From assembly GCA_947469485.1 (NCBI GenBank), contig CANIPU010000010.1, positions 1 through 64,000 on the forward strand: a stretch of 64,000 nt of DNA. Reading direction: 5' to 3'. A program made the position numbers and the translations under genes. This DNA is from Chitinophagaceae bacterium (GTDB lineage Bacteria; Bacteroidota; Bacteroidia; Chitinophagales; UBA10324). Under the pieces are notes generated by a model that was not told the DNA's origin, ran no database searches, and saw only the letters and a list, made by a program, of their open reading frames with translations. The number at the start of each line of letters is the position of its first letter. Within the stretch, counting starts at the first letter, position 1. Below, piece after piece: positions 40,004 to 48,565 of this stretch.

Positions 40004-41263
40004 TTATTTTAATTCGCGAAGGTTTAAATTCCTTAATTCAGGGAATTTAACCGAAGAATATAAAACTACAATTAAAGACATGCTTCCTCCAAAAATTATA
40101 GATGGAATTAACCCCATAAGTTTAGCTGCAGCTCCGGATTCAAAAGCGCCTAATTCATTACTTGATCCAATAAAAATGTTATTTAAAGCTGAAATCCTTC
40201 CGCGCATTTCATCCGGAGTTAGGAGTTGCTGTAAAGTTCCTCTTATAATAACACTAACGCAATCAAACATACCGGCAATTAATAAAAGTATAAAAGCAAC
40301 TAAAAAATTGGTGGTAAAGGCAAATAAAATGGTTGAAATTCCAAACCCGGCTACGCAATAAAGCAGCCATTTTCCGGCTTCTTTTAGAGGTGGAATGTAT
40401 GCCAATGCAATTCCCATTATTACAGAACCAAGAAATGGTGCTGCGTTTAAAAAGCCTAACCCTTCAGGTCCCACTTTCAATACATCGTTAGAAAACATTG
40501 GTAAAATAGCAATTGCCCCACCAAATAATACTGCAAATAAATCCAGGGTTATTGCAGCTAAGAGTGATTTTGTTTTAAAAAGGAATTTTACTCCAGTTGC
40601 AAGACTTTCCATTAAAGGCTCATTCTTAAATCTTTCAGGCAATGGATGTCGTCTTATTTTAAAGGTCATAAAATAAGATAATACAATTAAACTCACAACA
40701 CAGAAATAAGCAGTTGTAACTCCTGAAAATCCATAAATAACACCTCCTATTGCAGGACCTGCCACTGCTGCCGTTTGCCATGTATTACTACTCCAGGCAG
40801 TGGCATTTGCATAATGTGACCGTGGCACTATTTGACCAAATAACGCTGAAACAGCAGGTGCAAGAAACCCTCTTGCTATACCAGAAATGAATATGACAGA
40901 ATAAACCGGAAGAACACCATAGGTTGCAAGAAACAAGCTGTTGTCGAAGGTGAAATAAGTAAGAGCAATCGCACACAAAAGAAAAACCAGCGTAAACGAG
41001 ACCATTAAAACTTTGCGGTTAAATACATCAGCAGTGTGTCCGGCAAAAAAAGAAGATATAATATATGGAATTGCCTCTGCAAGCCCAATTAAACCTAAAG
41101 AAAGCGGATCTCGAGTATGTTCGAAAATCTGCCAGCCAACTATTACCCCCTGCATTCTTATTGCAACTGTAAATAAAAACCGATACAGCAAAAAATACCT
41201 GAACTCAACAAAGTTCAGCGACGAAAATGGATTATGTTTTTCAGGAATATCTGGAAGACTCAT
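40004..41263 (-). CDS. MFS transporter (EntS-like exporter group)
   Basis: 419 residues with about 11-12 hydrophobic segments. The loop 2-3 signature appears as AGHTADVFNRKVLM (G-x3-D-x2-RRK type). RDPLSLGLIGLAEAIPYI and TAWSSNTWQTAAVAGPAIGG match the MFS_3 group that includes enterobactin exporter EntS. It probably exports a small compound by proton antiport; the substrate is unknown. No siderophore genes are nearby. The start is the ATG at 41263, just after the ferredoxin terminator. Confidence 0.9.
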   Translation of the reverse strand: MSLPDIPEKHNPFSSLNFVEFRYFLLYRFLFTVAIRMQGVIVGWQIFEHTRDPLSLGLIGLAEAIPYIISSFFAGHTADVFNRKVLMVSFTLVFLLCAIALTYFTFDNSLFLATYGVLPVYSVIFISGIARGFLAPAVSALFGQIVPRSHYANATAWSSNTWQTAAVAGPAIGGVIYGFSGVTTAYFCVVSLIVLSYFMTFKIRRHPLPERFKNEPLMESLATGVKFLFKTKSLLAAITLDLFAVLFGGAIAILPMFSNDVLKVGPEGLGFLNAAPFLGSVIMGIALAYIPPLKEAGKWLLYCVAGFGISTILFAFTTNFLVAFILLLIAGMFDCVSVIIRGTLQQLLTPDEMRGRISALNNIFIGSSNELGAFESGAAAKLMGLIPSIIFGGSMSLIVVLYSSVKFPELRNLNLRELK

Positions 41264-41753: not shown

Positions 41754-42770
41754 TTGATTAAAAATATTAAAAATAAAAATGCTCCGCCGATTATCGGGTT
41801 AAGCAAACTTGGTGATTTCATTCTGAATTTTCCATCAGATTTGAATGATAAAATGAATGAAGCATATGTAAAAAATAATTGGTTCACAATTGAGAATCAG
41901 AAAATAATGCTCTGTTCCATCGCCAATAATTTTCTAAATGAAGAAAAACTGTTTAATTGGATTAATAATTATAATTATTCCGACACTCACCCCAAAAAAA
42001 TCGGGTTAGTTATGGCAGGTAATATTCCTCTTGTAGGGTTTCACGATTTGTTATGTGTGTGGTTGAGTGGAAATACAGCGCTTGTTAAATTATCATCGAA
42101 AGATGAAGTACTACTGCCTTTTCTGGTTCAGGAGCTTGAAAGAATATCCCCTGTTTTTAAAGACAGAACAATTTTTGCAGAGCGATTAAATGATGCCGAT
42201 GCAATCATTGCAACAGGAAGCAACAATTCTGCTCGATATTTTGAATATTATTTTAAAGATAAACCACACATCATCCGATCAAGCAGGAATTCGGTTGCAG
42301 TGCTTAATGGAAATGAAACAAACGAAGAAATTCTTTCGCTTGGCAAGGATATTTTCAGATACTTTGGATTGGGTTGCAGAAATGTTTCAAAACTATATTT
42401 ACCTGAAGGATACGATCCAACAGAAATTTATAAGACCTTGTCTATATATTCAGATATTTCTTACCATAATAAATACAAAAACAATTTCGATTATAACTGC
42501 ACTATATTATTAATGAATAAAACCCCTCATTTTGCAAATGAATTTTTAATTCTTCAGGAAAGTGAGGCAATTGCATCCAGAATTGCTACTGTTCACTACG
42601 AATTTTATAAATCAGAAAGTGATTTGACCGAAAAATTATCTGCCAGAAAAAACGATATCCAATGCATTATCGGAAAAAAATATATCCCATTTGGCCAATC
42701 ACAAGAACCTTCATTAGTTGATTATGCAGACAATATTGACACATTGAAATTTTTATCGGAGCTGAATTAA
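41754..42770 (+). CDS. LuxC-like acyl-CoA reductase (TTG start)
   Basis: 338 residues resembling the LuxC/acyl-CoA reductase family (aldehyde dehydrogenase fold). Segments include GLVMAGNIPLVGFHDLLCVW, LVKLSSKDEVLLPFL, AIIATGSNNSARYFEYYF and the candidate catalytic Cys208 in FGLGCRNVSKLYLP. It would reduce an acyl-CoA or acyl-enzyme to an aldehyde with NADPH. A TAG at 41748-41750 blocks any upstream extension and the next ATG is 33 codons in, so a TTG (or ATT) start is implied. The protein is slightly shorter than Vibrio LuxC. Confidence 0.88.
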   Translation: MIKNIKNKNAPPIIGLSKLGDFILNFPSDLNDKMNEAYVKNNWFTIENQKIMLCSIANNFLNEEKLFNWINNYNYSDTHPKKIGLVMAGNIPLVGFHDLLCVWLSGNTALVKLSSKDEVLLPFLVQELERISPVFKDRTIFAERLNDADAIIATGSNNSARYFEYYFKDKPHIIRSSRNSVAVLNGNETNEEILSLGKDIFRYFGLGCRNVSKLYLPEGYDPTEIYKTLSIYSDISYHNKYKNNFDYNCTILLMNKTPHFANEFLILQESEAIASRIATVHYEFYKSESDLTEKLSARKNDIQCIIGKKYIPFGQSQEPSLVDYADNIDTLKFLSELN

Positions 42771-42781
42771 TTTACACCAAC

Positions 42782-45700
42782 TTACCTGGAATACTTTTCA
42801 AATTTATAATGTGCTTCCAATTTTCCTTGCAGAAAGATATTTATGAAATAAATTCCTTCCGGCAGACTTTCTACATCTACTCTAAGTTTATTAATTCCAT
42901 CCTTTAATTTCATTTGATCGTGCATCATTTCCTGCCCTAACAGATTTGTTATTGAAATTTTTACATCGTTTACTCCTGATGAAATTAATTCGTAATTGAT
43001 GTGCTTGTTAGTTGGATTCGGATAAAGTGAGGATACAACAACTGCTTCAGATCCAAACACAAGCGAAACAATCTGCGAATAAAAAGCATCGCCATTGTCA
43101 TCAACTTCTTTTAATCTGTAATACCTGATACCATTCTTATTTAATTCTCTGTCAACGAAACTATAATCACGAACAACAAATGAAGTTCCACATCCGGCCA
43201 CCTCACCTATTTTTCTAAAAATAAGTTTACCGTCTGCTCCAAGCTCATTGGATACTTCCAAATCAAAATGATTACAGTTCAATTCAGATGCAGTTGTCCA
43301 TTTCAAAATTGCGTTAATATTATTATCAATATAATCTGCAGTAAAACCTGTTAATTGTATTGGCAGCGAACTTCCGCCAAACCCAATTCCAAAATCAGAA
43401 AATGAAGTCAAATTTGTTCGAACAGCCGTAACGGTTCCACCGCTGATATTTTGTGTTGCATTAGTATGAACTCCCAACGATTGCCAAAGTGAAAAACAAT
43501 CATCGCGTTTAATAACTGCACAATAATTTGCAGCCAATGGCGGATTGGTATACCCGCGTTCATTTAACTGAATATTATAAGTTCCGGATACTGGCTGATC
43601 ATCAGGTGTAATTGTCCAGTAACCTGCATCTAACAATTCAGTTATTGGTGAGCCATTTAAAAATGGTCCGCCGCCGCTATTTGGAACCGGGGAGCAAAAA
43701 GAATTATCTGGAAAATATTCGCCTAATAAATAAATAGTAGGTATTAAATTATTTACTGTAACAGTAGCTAATTCGTATCGGGTTGCATCGCCAATCGGAA
43801 AGTCAAATGCACCTGTATTATTTATATATCGAATTAATCTTCCATTAATATAATTAGTGTTGTTAAAACCAAACACGGCGGCCGGATCTGGATTTATCAC
43901 ATTTAATATGCTTCCGCCAGTACTTACAATTCCACTAAACAAATTTAAATAATTTGTAACTGTAACACCCCCGGTAATTATTATTCCTGCAGAATTATTA
44001 ATTTTAAGATCATAGCAAGTAACACTTGGAATGGTTTGAATTGAAGTACCGCTTAATTCCAATAACCCTCCTGAATGATCGTAAATACCTGAAGGTTCAA
44101 CAATTAAATCACCCTTCATATCTAAAATATTTGAAGATATTGACAGAATAGCCCCATTTTTTATCGTTAAACTTTTACACTTTGCAATTCCGCCAAGATC
44201 AATTAATGGATCAAAGAGTGTAAGAGCACTTGAAGGAATTGTAACATCGGTAGTGTAAGTAGGAACGCCATCACACCAATTCGCAGGATTATTCCAATCA
44301 GTACTAATTCCACCTACCCAATGACCAGCTAAAACTACTGGTCCAGCAATTATTGTTACGCTATTTGAAGGCGCTGAAATACAGCCCGCGGAATTTGTAA
44401 CTGTATAACTATATGGGCCTCCAATAGCCACTGAACTAATTAAATTTGTAGTACCTGATCCTGATATTGAATTTGGATTTATGGTCCAGCTTCCTATTGA
44501 TGGCAAACTGGATAATAAAATACTTCCAGTAAGAATGGTTGAACAGGTAGGTTGTGTTGCAGTTGCAACCGGAGCTGATGGAGGCGGTGCAATATTTACA
44601 ATTACTGCAATTTGTGTTCTTGGTCCTTCGCATACCGGCAAACCACTTGAATTTGTCTGAGAAACATAATATGCAGTAGTTCCCGGAACAATGGTAGAAG
44701 GGATTGGTGCTGTTGAAGACCCAACACCTCCTGTGGCTGAAGTATACCAGAGTAAATTAGTACCAGTTGCGGTTAATTGACTTGGCGCAGCATTAAGAGC
44801 ATAAGTAATAGGAGTTGAAACAGTGGGCGCTAATGTAGCACATGAAACTGGTCCACTGCCACCTACAATTACTCCGGTTGCATTTGGAACAGAAACTGAT
44901 ACATCAGCTATATATCCTAAAGAAGTAGAAAAAATTCCACAGGTTGTTCTATAAGGACAATCATTTGGATACAAATCTGACTGTATCCAAAGGCGCATTT
45001 TTATTCCGCTTGTTGCCACATTTGTCGGAACTGTTATGCTTTGGGCAGCTCCAAGTGCATTGGTTATTGTTCCTGATGGATATCGTTCACCCGAATCTCT
45101 GAAATCACCATTCCCATTCCAATCAATCCATACTGCCCATCTAAAATCAAGACCAATCCAATCATCAAAATTGAAAGAAAGTGAATAAGTTGAGCCTTCA
45201 TTTACAGTAAAAACATAGGTTGCTGTAAGATCATTATAACCATTTCCATTATTTGCAGCATTACACGGGAAGTTAGCTAAAGTATTTCCGAAGGTTGCAT
45301 TAAGAATCGTCATTCCCTGGCAACAAGCAGTAATGCAACCAGTAAATGCACATGCTGCTGCAACAGGTGTGGTAATTGCACATGTTCCTCCAGGTAAAGG
45401 TCTATTTCCTGCAGGTGCAATAACTGAAGGTGTTTTATCCGATGACACACCATTTTCTGAAATATTAAAGGAGGTAATTGTAGCATCTAATACATGACCT
45501 CCAACCGCAGTGGATTTAACATCATATGCAATCCAGAAATAATTATTACCTGTTAACAGCGCAAAATTCCCGGTTGCAATAAGAGACGCCGGATTTGTTG
45601 TAAAAGTGCTACCGAATTGGGTAGCGTTTGAAAAGGCATTGCTGTTGCCGGTGAAAAATATTTTTGCGTTAGTAACATCAGTAGCAACATTTGTTGATCC

Positions 45701-47758
45701 GGTAGTTGTAAAAGTTATAGAGTTTAAAAAAACTGCCTGCGTTAAATTTCCTCCGGTAACAATTGTAAGTTTGACTATATCCTGCGCCAGTGCTCCTGCC
45801 GAAGTATTTGCAGTGTTTTGAGTTGTAGTACTTGATAAATAAAATCCTCCAAGGGTTGCGGAGCTTATTGTTGCAGGTGCAATAATATTATAGCAATTAG
45901 GAGAAATATTGTATTCATAAATTTGAAAATAATAAGTGGTTCCGGCAACCAAACCTGTTAATGGAACTGTAACTGTTCCCGATGCATTTCCGTCATAAAC
46001 AACATAATTACCTGTTCCGATTTGAGAACCACTACCAAAAACAGCATTTGCAGAATAACTTGTGTTATAAACCGGATCGGCATTTACAGCAGATCCTGCA
46101 CGCGCTAATACTATTACTCTGCTTCCATTTCCCCTGACAAATGACAAATTCATTGTTGTATTTGTCACACATAAAATAGTAGGAATAGTTGGCTGTATTG
46201 TAGGTGAGCATGATGCTGTTGTAAAACTGCCTATAGCAGGAGAAGAAAGATTATAACAATGTGAGGCTGAGAAATAGGAATAAACTGCATAATGATAAAC
46301 TGAGCCCGGAAACAACCCGGTAATAGTGGCGGCTGAAGCATTATCGACACAGGCATCACCAAACATTACATTACCGGATCCCAGCGAACTTCCGGTAGGA
46401 GAACCAAAATTAAAATTTAAATTATCGGTATATGTAGTTGTTAAAACCGGAGCCCCACTTACTGCTGACCCTTGTCTTAAAATAATGAGTGTTTTATTAC
46501 CGTTTCCAGGAATCCAGTTTAATGTAGCAGTTGTAGTGTTAATTACAGGAACTGTAACTGCCGATACCTGCAAAGTTGGCTGAACACAACCTCCGGCTAT
46601 TGAAACCCTGTAATCTTCTGTTTCGCCAGCCCCACCTGCACCAGCGGTACCTGTAAAATTGGTACAAGCATCAGTAGAGGTTACAGCCCCTCCATAGCGA
46701 TGCCTGACCCGCATTGCAGTGTTTCCAATTAATGCTGTGCCCGGAACTGTAAAACTAATATTAGTAGTTGAATTAGCGGCTGAGTTAGCAAACGAACCCA
46801 GAAACTCAGCTGTTTCAAAAAAACCGTTTTGATTATAGTCAATCCATGCTCCAGCATTGTTACTTGCTGTGGCCTGAGTAGAAACTTTTACGGCAAGAAC
46901 ATAAGCTGTATTAATAATTAAACCGGCATTAGAAACCGGACTTGCACCAGTATAAAGTGTATAACTTGTAGCTCCTGCGCCTCCATTAAGAACGGCAGAA
47001 GTATTTAGAATAATTGGGCTAGCCGGGGCAGCAATACCAACACTAACAATTCCCCGTGTTCCTCCATTTGAGGCAGCATAAGTTCCTGTACAATAACAAT
47101 TCAGAAAAGAATTCAAACTTATATTACCAGCTATTGAAGGTGTCATTAAACCGGAATTGGTGCAGGTTACTTCACATACATAATAAGTAGGGTTAAAGGG
47201 AAGTGAAGCAGGTGTTGTGTAAGTAGCTCCATTGTTTGTTCCGGATGCATTAGAAAAAGATCCGGGATAAGAGGAAGTACTTGATTGCTTCCATAGATAA
47301 GTATACCCGGCAGCTCCTGCAAGGCCTGATAAACTAACTACTGATGATGAACCTGAACAAACAGTAGAAGAAGACGCAGTAGCTACTGCAGGGGCTCCGC
47401 TACATGGAGTTGCCGCAGTTACTGTAAGACGAACATTACACAATCGATTGGTTTGAGATCCAGTTCCGGGATAAGCAGTAGCACAAGATGCAGAAGCACC
47501 TCCGGCAAAACCCATGTGGTTATTGCCACCTACGGCAGTATATTGGCATCCGCCATAAGTTGAAATTAACCCGACACCGGTATAATTATAACAAACTTCT
47601 ATACAAAGATTACTGGTACCATCCCAAAGAAACGGGGTACCAATATTTAAACTGAACCAACCGGTTGCTGCGAAGGTTGTGTTTGCAGCTCCATATACAG
47701 TCGTCATTGCACCGGTATAATAACCACCGGATAAGTCAGCTTGAACCACATTGGCCAT
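42782..47758 (-). CDS. Giant T9SS type A surface protein, main part of a nonsense-split gene
   Basis: 1658 residues from an ATG at 47758, lacking a signal peptide. The same frame continues upstream through nine sense codons to a single TGA at 47786-47788, and then into the 128-residue piece that does carry the signal. Domains: a front domain (LSGGYYTGAMTTVYGA), GEVED-type modules (WIDYNQNGFF with GETEDYRV; WIDWNGNGDFRDSGE), FN3-like and Ig-like parts, a low-complexity Ala/Ser/Thr/Gly region, and a type A tail (SSLYPNPTNKHINYEL, LPEGIYFINIFLQG). Without the upstream signal it could not be exported unless the stop is read through or is a sequencing error. Confidence 0.88.
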   Translation of the reverse strand: MANVVQADLSGGYYTGAMTTVYGAANTTFAATGWFSLNIGTPFLWDGTSNLCIEVCYNYTGVGLISTYGGCQYTAVGGNNHMGFAGGASASCATAYPGTGSQTNRLCNVRLTVTAATPCSGAPAVATASSSTVCSGSSSVVSLSGLAGAAGYTYLWKQSSTSSYPGSFSNASGTNNGATYTTPASLPFNPTYYVCEVTCTNSGLMTPSIAGNISLNSFLNCYCTGTYAASNGGTRGIVSVGIAAPASPIILNTSAVLNGGAGATSYTLYTGASPVSNAGLIINTAYVLAVKVSTQATASNNAGAWIDYNQNGFFETAEFLGSFANSAANSTTNISFTVPGTALIGNTAMRVRHRYGGAVTSTDACTNFTGTAGAGGAGETEDYRVSIAGGCVQPTLQVSAVTVPVINTTTATLNWIPGNGNKTLIILRQGSAVSGAPVLTTTYTDNLNFNFGSPTGSSLGSGNVMFGDACVDNASAATITGLFPGSVYHYAVYSYFSASHCYNLSSPAIGSFTTASCSPTIQPTIPTILCVTNTTMNLSFVRGNGSRVIVLARAGSAVNADPVYNTSYSANAVFGSGSQIGTGNYVVYDGNASGTVTVPLTGLVAGTTYYFQIYEYNISPNCYNIIAPATISSATLGGFYLSSTTTQNTANTSAGALAQDIVKLTIVTGGNLTQAVFLNSITFTTTGSTNVATDVTNAKIFFTGNSNAFSNATQFGSTFTTNPASLIATGNFALLTGNNYFWIAYDVKSTAVGGHVLDATITSFNISENGVSSDKTPSVIAPAGNRPLPGGTCAITTPVAAACAFTGCITACCQGMTILNATFGNTLANFPCNAANNGNGYNDLTATYVFTVNEGSTYSLSFNFDDWIGLDFRWAVWIDWNGNGDFRDSGERYPSGTITNALGAAQSITVPTNVATSGIKMRLWIQSDLYPNDCPYRTTCGIFSTSLGYIADVSVSVPNATGVIVGGSGPVSCATLAPTVSTPITYALNAAPSQLTATGTNLLWYTSATGGVGSSTAPIPSTIVPGTTAYYVSQTNSSGLPVCEGPRTQIAVIVNIAPPPSAPVATATQPTCSTILTGSILLSSLPSIGSWTINPNSISGSGTTNLISSVAIGGPYSYTVTNSAGCISAPSNSVTIIAGPVVLAGHWVGGISTDWNNPANWCDGVPTYTTDVTIPSSALTLFDPLIDLGGIAKCKSLTIKNGAILSISSNILDMKGDLIVEPSGIYDHSGGLLELSGTSIQTIPSVTCYDLKINNSAGIIITGGVTVTNYLNLFSGIVSTGGSILNVINPDPAAVFGFNNTNYINGRLIRYINNTGAFDFPIGDATRYELATVTVNNLIPTIYLLGEYFPDNSFCSPVPNSGGGPFLNGSPITELLDAGYWTITPDDQPVSGTYNIQLNERGYTNPPLAANYCAVIKRDDCFSLWQSLGVHTNATQNISGGTVTAVRTNLTSFSDFGIGFGGSSLPIQLTGFTADYIDNNINAILKWTTASELNCNHFDLEVSNELGADGKLIFRKIGEVAGCGTSFVVRDYSFVDRELNKNGIRYYRLKEVDDNGDAFYSQIVSLVFGSEAVVVSSLYPNPTNKHINYELISSGVNDVKISITNLLGQEMMHDQMKLKDGINKLRVDVESLPEGIYFINIFLQGKLEAHYKFEKYSR

Positions 47759-47785
47759 TTTAACTGTATAGTTTTGATTAACGAA

Positions 47786-48172
47786 TCATGCAGTTACAAT
47801 ACCTGTTATATTAAATCCAACGGTTGAAATAAAAGAAGCACCTGGCGTATAACCTGCATTGGTCATTGCGGTATTAATCATTGCAGCAGTATAAATCATC
47901 TGCACTTTTTTACCTCCACTGCCTGAACCAACATTAACACCATAAGGGGAGCACGCTTCTGCGGTTGTAGTGGGGTTAGTACCTACACTTGGAACTCCTG
48001 TACCGGTTCCAACTGTAATTAATGTCTGACTATAAGTTTGGTTCGTTTCAAACAGTAACAGCGACAGCAATAAAAAACAACAAAATCTTACTGCAAAAAC
48101 CGATTGGGTTGTATTAAAACTAAACTGAAACAAACCTTTGATTTCAGAAAATTCATTGTAACGCTTTATCAT
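47786..48172 (-). pseudogene. Signal-peptide-bearing 5' part of the split giant T9SS gene
   Basis: 128 residues ending at an in-frame TGA. The N-terminus has a long export signal (about 28-49, CCFLLLSLLLF, then TYSQ). It is followed by the start of the adhesin's first domain (TTTAEACSPYGVNVGSG, VQMIYTAAMI, ISTVGFNITGIVTA). The next codons in the same frame (FVNQNYTVK) lead straight into the 1658-residue reading frame at 47758. The natural gene is therefore 42782-48172, encoding about 1796 residues. Confidence 0.75.
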
Positions 48173-48565
48173 AACTAACAGAATTGTAAATTAAAAATTC
48201 TTTACTCTTAAATTACTAATCACCTAATAAGCAATTTCATTAAGTTAAATTAATGCTTTTTTGTATTCCATTATAAATTATTTTTTAACGGCATAAACCC
48301 GACATAACTAAATTGCCAGTTACTTGGTGTACTTATTTTTAAACAAGTAATCTTAATCAAATAACAAATCAACCTATAAGTACTGACTACTAAATTCTTT
48401 CATTCAGTTACAAACTGAAACAGGTGACGAAAATTACATTTTGCAGCGGAGGTAATAATTAATTATCCAATTCGGAATATGTATTTCATTTCTGACCAAT
48501 ATAAAATAAAACTCCCCCCGACACAAGTGCCGGGGGGAGTTTTATTACTGTTTTAAAAGACTTAA
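48173..48565. other. Intergenic region between the two giant genes
   Basis: 393 bp, AT-rich. Apart from the terminator at 48508-48544 I see no gene or repeat. It should hold the promoter for the split adhesin; a TAATTTTC (one mismatch from TAnnTTTG) occurs on the minus strand, but without a matching TTTG box at the right distance. Confidence 0.5.
48508..48544 (-). terminator. Strong GC-rich terminator of the 2373-residue gene
   Basis: Arms AACTCCCCCCG and CGGGGGGAGTT pair perfectly (13 bp counting the flanking A/T pairs) around a ten-base loop that itself can pair CAC with GTG. A T-rich run follows on the minus strand. It lies just past the stop at 48566. Confidence 0.92.

Follow-up and report, generated by a model that had tools for sequence, protein, structure and literature searches.

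A single in-frame TGA interrupts a gene for a putative type IX-secreted surface protein in a Chitinophagaceae genome, probably through a recent nonsense mutation

On the minus strand of the stretch of DNA analysed here (the window: 64,000 nucleotides of contig 10 of a 3.08-Mb, 45-contig genome of a Chitinophagaceae bacterium), an open reading frame of 128 residues is followed by one of 1658 residues, with a TGA and nine sense codons between them. Substrates of the type IX secretion system (T9SS) carry a Sec signal peptide together with a C-terminal sorting domain (PMC12618676), and at this locus a stop lies between the two. Are these two genes, one gene that has been broken, one gene whose TGA is decoded, or an error of the assembly? 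An earlier note on this DNA, made from the sequence alone, had offered a recent nonsense mutation, a sequencing or assembly error and stop read-through as possibilities.

Checking of the coordinates upheld that note's reading that the pieces share one frame, separated by the TGA and the codons for FVNQNYTVK, and that there is no frameshift. The TGA at 47788-47786 is the sole stop in the minus-strand frame across 42782-48172 (1,797 codons), and no frameshift was found across these ~1,800 codons. The ATG at 47758 is merely the start chosen by the ORF finder; the frame is in fact open from the first codon past the TGA, for 1667 codons. At a random-codon stop rate of 6.5% the probability of such a run is given by ln P = -111, so chance would hardly ever leave a frame open for so long. 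Codon usage prefers the gene's frame in the 5' piece, the nine-codon spacer and the 3' piece alike. A strong terminator-like hairpin (48505..48546, 20-nt arms, 95% complementary) lies between the upstream 2373-residue T9SS gene and the broken gene, which is therefore probably its own transcription unit. Table 1 gives the features of the locus.

Table 1. Parts of the interrupted gene, in window coordinates
Feature	Position	Strand	Description
5' piece	47786..48172	-	128 codons; hydrophobic signal segment at the N-terminus, first half of a beta-sandwich, then TGA
In-frame TGA stop, codon 129	47786..47788	-	read 47788 to 47786
Spacer FVNQNYTVK	47759..47785	-	nine sense codons after the TGA; same frame, coding-like
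3' piece	42782..47758	-	1658 codons without a signal peptide; GEVED domains, BNR_assoc_N and T9SS type A sorting domain
N-terminal beta-sandwich domain, residues 47-262	47387..48034	-	straddles the stop; from alignment and AlphaFold2 model

Orthologues at the same locus in four sister species of the same genus (G001-G004) are single uninterrupted frames of 1549-1874 aa, each with an N-terminal signal segment and a C-terminal part 61-77% identical to that of the present gene. The locus is identified by shared neighbours, a LuxC-like gene (41754-42770) and a gene of 419 residues (40004-41263). Among the genomes compared, no other species has the present N-terminal domain at this locus, the four orthologues carrying others; the stop thus has no direct orthologous column, and a codon-by-codon comparison with them is precluded. 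Comparison at the stop site rests instead on homologues of the domain that contains it (residues ~63-200), at ~30% identity. None of thirty aligned relatives from across the order has a stop in this region. The stop column lies in a loop that varies among them: P, T, Q, S, A, N, L, F or a gap accounts for most rows, and none of the domain homologues has cysteine there. The earlier note had proposed looking for a conserved sense codon in homologues: all thirty lack a stop there, and the residue at the column varies. No interrupted orthologue or domain homologue at the stop position was found among the relatives compared, and homologues in which the two parts are naturally separate genes, which that note had named as grounds for abandoning the one-gene reading, were looked for and not found.

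Between the species of the genus, N-terminal domains have been exchanged at this locus (42782-48172), while a C-terminal stretch of 500-1270 residues keeps 61-77% identity, a pattern that we read from the sequences as domain shuffling in a surface protein. In G002 and G003 the C-terminal part is present once more, next to the orthologue. A further match containing a TGA, elsewhere in the genome (C19:57391-57954), was rejected, being an unrelated nuclease-like gene whose alignment overran its own start, and a scan of contigs across genomes gave one weak, uninformative Flavobacterium match.

The protein that would be made by reading through the stop has the composition of a T9SS cargo. Pfam finds GEVED (two stretches), BNR_assoc_N and Por_Secre_tail (1716-1779) in this frame, and the C-terminal sorting domain scores above the cut-offs for TIGR04183 and PF18962 (42.8 and 39.1 bits). 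By a simple hydrophobicity test, a signal-like segment lies in frame upstream of the stop and the 1658-residue piece has none. This agrees with the earlier assignment of signal peptide and sorting domain to different pieces, and a Sec signal peptide would share a polypeptide with the type A sorting domain only if the stop were read through. The label adhesin, also given earlier, is drawn from the domain make-up, and the role is a putative one.

AlphaFold2, run on the read-through sequence with a 31-row alignment (model residue 1 being protein residue 47), predicts a beta-sandwich with a mean pLDDT of 77 and a pTM of 0.82. The model places the stop (residue 129, model 83) in the loop that joins strand 67-76 to strand 85-96; it has the ORF finder's start methionine (residue 139, model 93) within strand 85-96. 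If the model is correct, the 128-residue piece would therefore be half a domain, and the 1658-residue piece would begin mid-strand. A Foldseek search of the N-terminal domain against the PDB returned beta-sandwich matches that were weak, all with E values above 0.001.

Could the locus nevertheless consist of two genes by nature, one for a short secreted protein and the other for a large protein starting from ATG 47758? The A-rich stretch before this ATG does resemble the starts of this genome. Such an arrangement is at odds with the four same-locus orthologues, all of which are single frames, and with the placing of the ATG inside a predicted beta-strand, in a domain that lies on both sides of the stop. 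The large piece would also have a sorting domain but lack a signal peptide, which would set it apart from almost all the 145 sorting-domain frames that we checked. We consider it highly improbable. The single-frame orthologues, the stop-free homologues of the N-terminal domain and the predicted beta-sandwich across the stop together support our conclusion that the 128- and 1658-residue ORFs are one interrupted gene of ~1,796 residues.

Those 145 frames come from a survey of 150 sorting-domain frames for splits by an in-frame stop, and are the ones with a readable 5' end. The signal-like segment is weak or absent in eight of them; in two of these eight, a signal-like segment lies upstream, in frame, across one stop. 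One is the present gene (TGA). The other (TAA) is a T9SS-sorted gene on contig 4 (C4:143076-143867) with a TlpA-like N-terminus, split by an in-frame TAA at C4:143355-143357; its relative in G001 is a 92%-identical, uninterrupted protein with a sense codon in place of the TAA. In this genome, as read from its assembly, T9SS genes thus appear to be split by nonsense codons of two kinds, TGA and TAA, and the involvement of both stops counts against a decoding specific to TGA. Elsewhere, at C28:20859-21071, a T9SS sorting domain stands in an 81-codon frame without the rest of the protein and is probably a gene remnant. The genome has at least 150 Por_Secre_tail domains in its 3.08 Mb, a large set of T9SS cargo, and its SprA translocon is intact (2583 bits, frame of 2465 aa).

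That the TGA is recoded, as selenocysteine, by a suppressor tRNA or as a sense codon throughout the genome, has the in-frame TGA itself as its sole support. A selenoprotein would call for SelB and tRNA-Sec in the genome. No SelB match exceeds the cut-off, the best being an EF-Tu-like frame of 405 aa, and the tRNA-Sec matches are below the gathering score. ARAGORN finds no UCA anticodon among the 33 tRNA genes over cut-off. RF2 is encoded, over cut-off, and TGA terminates two of the 30 long frames of the window; TGA is a normal stop in this genome. With no cysteine at the homologous column either, we reject all three forms of recoding within the sensitivity of the searches made, unless the draft lacks the genes concerned, and give the idea next to no chance of being right.

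Another form of decoding would be a programmed or useful read-through, in which a few ribosomes insert an amino acid (usually Trp) at the TGA and so produce a low level of full-length protein. TGA is the leakiest stop, read through in E. coli at up to several per cent at low temperature (PMC11126739), and in-frame stops are known in bacterial genes that keep dN/dS <1 (PMC7918605). Against this, the base 3' of the TGA is T (TGAT context), which increases termination efficiency (PMC11126739), the nearby predicted hairpins are weak and lie off the stop, and no relative conserves the stop. Neither a conserved stop nor a leaky context or stimulatory structure, the marks of programmed read-through, was therefore found. 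The UGA-reading tRNA-Trp with a 4-bp anticodon stem has the top of that stem unpaired, stems having been classed from tRNAscan-SE output (PMC13092985); by hand reading, the single tRNA-Trp of this genome (anticodon CCA, A9, G24) has five pairs, with a G-U wobble on top (27-43), a reading that leans against this route. The tRNA set, the lack of a SelB match, the presence of RF2, the TGAT context and the unconserved stop leave the read-through option of the earlier note very unlikely, although a trace of full-length protein may arise through basal read-through of the TGA.

The remaining alternative is that the stop is an error of sequencing, of assembly or of a strain consensus, and that the cells hold a sense codon and a whole gene. 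The source, with its 45 contigs, resembles a draft or metagenome assembly, and one wrong base would suffice, the rest of the gene being intact. On the other side, the change is a substitution rather than an indel, and homopolymers of at least 5 are absent within 40 nt; the site sits 48 kb into a contig of 104 kb; the assembly holds no second allele or copy; and another, independent gene with a nonsense split is present in this genome. None of these four points is decisive, and we regard an error as unlikely rather than negligible. We infer that the stop is present in cells rather than in the assembly alone, that it is recent, and that secretion has been lost.

The absence of a second lesion in 1,797 codons points to a young event: neutral divergence since inactivation is bounded, roughly and at 95%, at 0.4-1.5%, assuming that 3-4% of substitutions make stops and a range of indel rates. 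Against the G004 orthologue dN/dS is ~0.15 (0.156/1.03), an average over a long divergence that is silent on selection after the stop; on this comparison, the gene family is under purifying selection. The gene thus has what we would look for in a recent nonsense allele: a single stop, no other lesion and uninterrupted relatives, the last compared at the level of the gene and not codon by codon, given their different N-terminal domains. No simple repeat, inverted repeat or invertible element was found at the stop, and the suggestion of a phase-off adhesin, understood as a programmed switch, is left unsupported.

Our preferred explanation, which we think probably correct, is a recent nonsense point mutation at codon 129 of a gene for a T9SS-exported surface protein, with loss of that protein. 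With its single-frame orthologues, the domain across the stop and the lack of a decoder, the nonsense mutation proposed in the earlier note has become the likeliest account. The intact gene would have encoded a surface protein of ~1,796 residues with a two-step export, through Sec and then the T9SS. Following the mutation, ribosomes would terminate at the TGA, releasing a 128-residue product that amounts to half a beta-sandwich and lacks the sorting domain. Were translation to restart at the ATG 30 bases downstream, the resulting protein would begin within a beta-strand and have no signal peptide, so that it would not enter the periplasm and the T9SS would be out of its reach. With signal peptide and sorting domain on separate products, the protein should miss the cell surface, and the sequenced lineage would have lost it. 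The stop may be a short-lived and possibly locally adaptive polymorphism. It is a long shot that the TGA is instead being maintained as a low-expression allele and is not on the way to decay, whether because recurrent, later-reverting nonsense substitutions switch surface proteins of this T9SS-rich lineage off and on across the population or because cold-stimulated read-through of the TGA keeps them at a trace level.

For annotation, the 128- and 1658-residue ORFs are best entered as a single gene with an interruption. Taken alone, a single interrupted gene is ordinary, and events of this kind are known. Provided that the stop is real, the locus captures a surface protein cleanly at its loss and ahead of decay, with a second case in the same genome, and transient, reversible nonsense alleles in Bacteroidota surface proteins become testable in read data.

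Comparable cases are known. In Bacteroides fragilis in gut hosts, stops are enriched among de novo mutations (28/325), the cell-envelope category is enriched in stop-adjacent codons, and theory and codon usage have led to the proposal that stops revert adaptively (PMC11379459). The present gene resembles those cases in being a Bacteroidota gene, under long-term purifying selection and otherwise intact, with a single nonsense change; it differs in coming from another organism and one assembly, with no evidence here for selection or reversion. It likewise shares with the genes of Belinky et al. (PMC7918605) a single in-frame stop, an otherwise conserved frame and the time scale of a population polymorphism, although their set requires the stop in at least two species and ours is in one genome. 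Like T9SS type A proteins with GEVED and Por_Secre_tail, it has a signal segment, GEVED and a sorting domain, at a locus conserved in sister species; unlike them, its frame is broken and its N-terminal domain is species-specific at the locus. In Flavobacterium psychrophilum, a premature stop occurs in a gliding gene of one isolate (PMC8400371). The interrupted gene described here is a further example of the nonsense events known in Bacteroidota.
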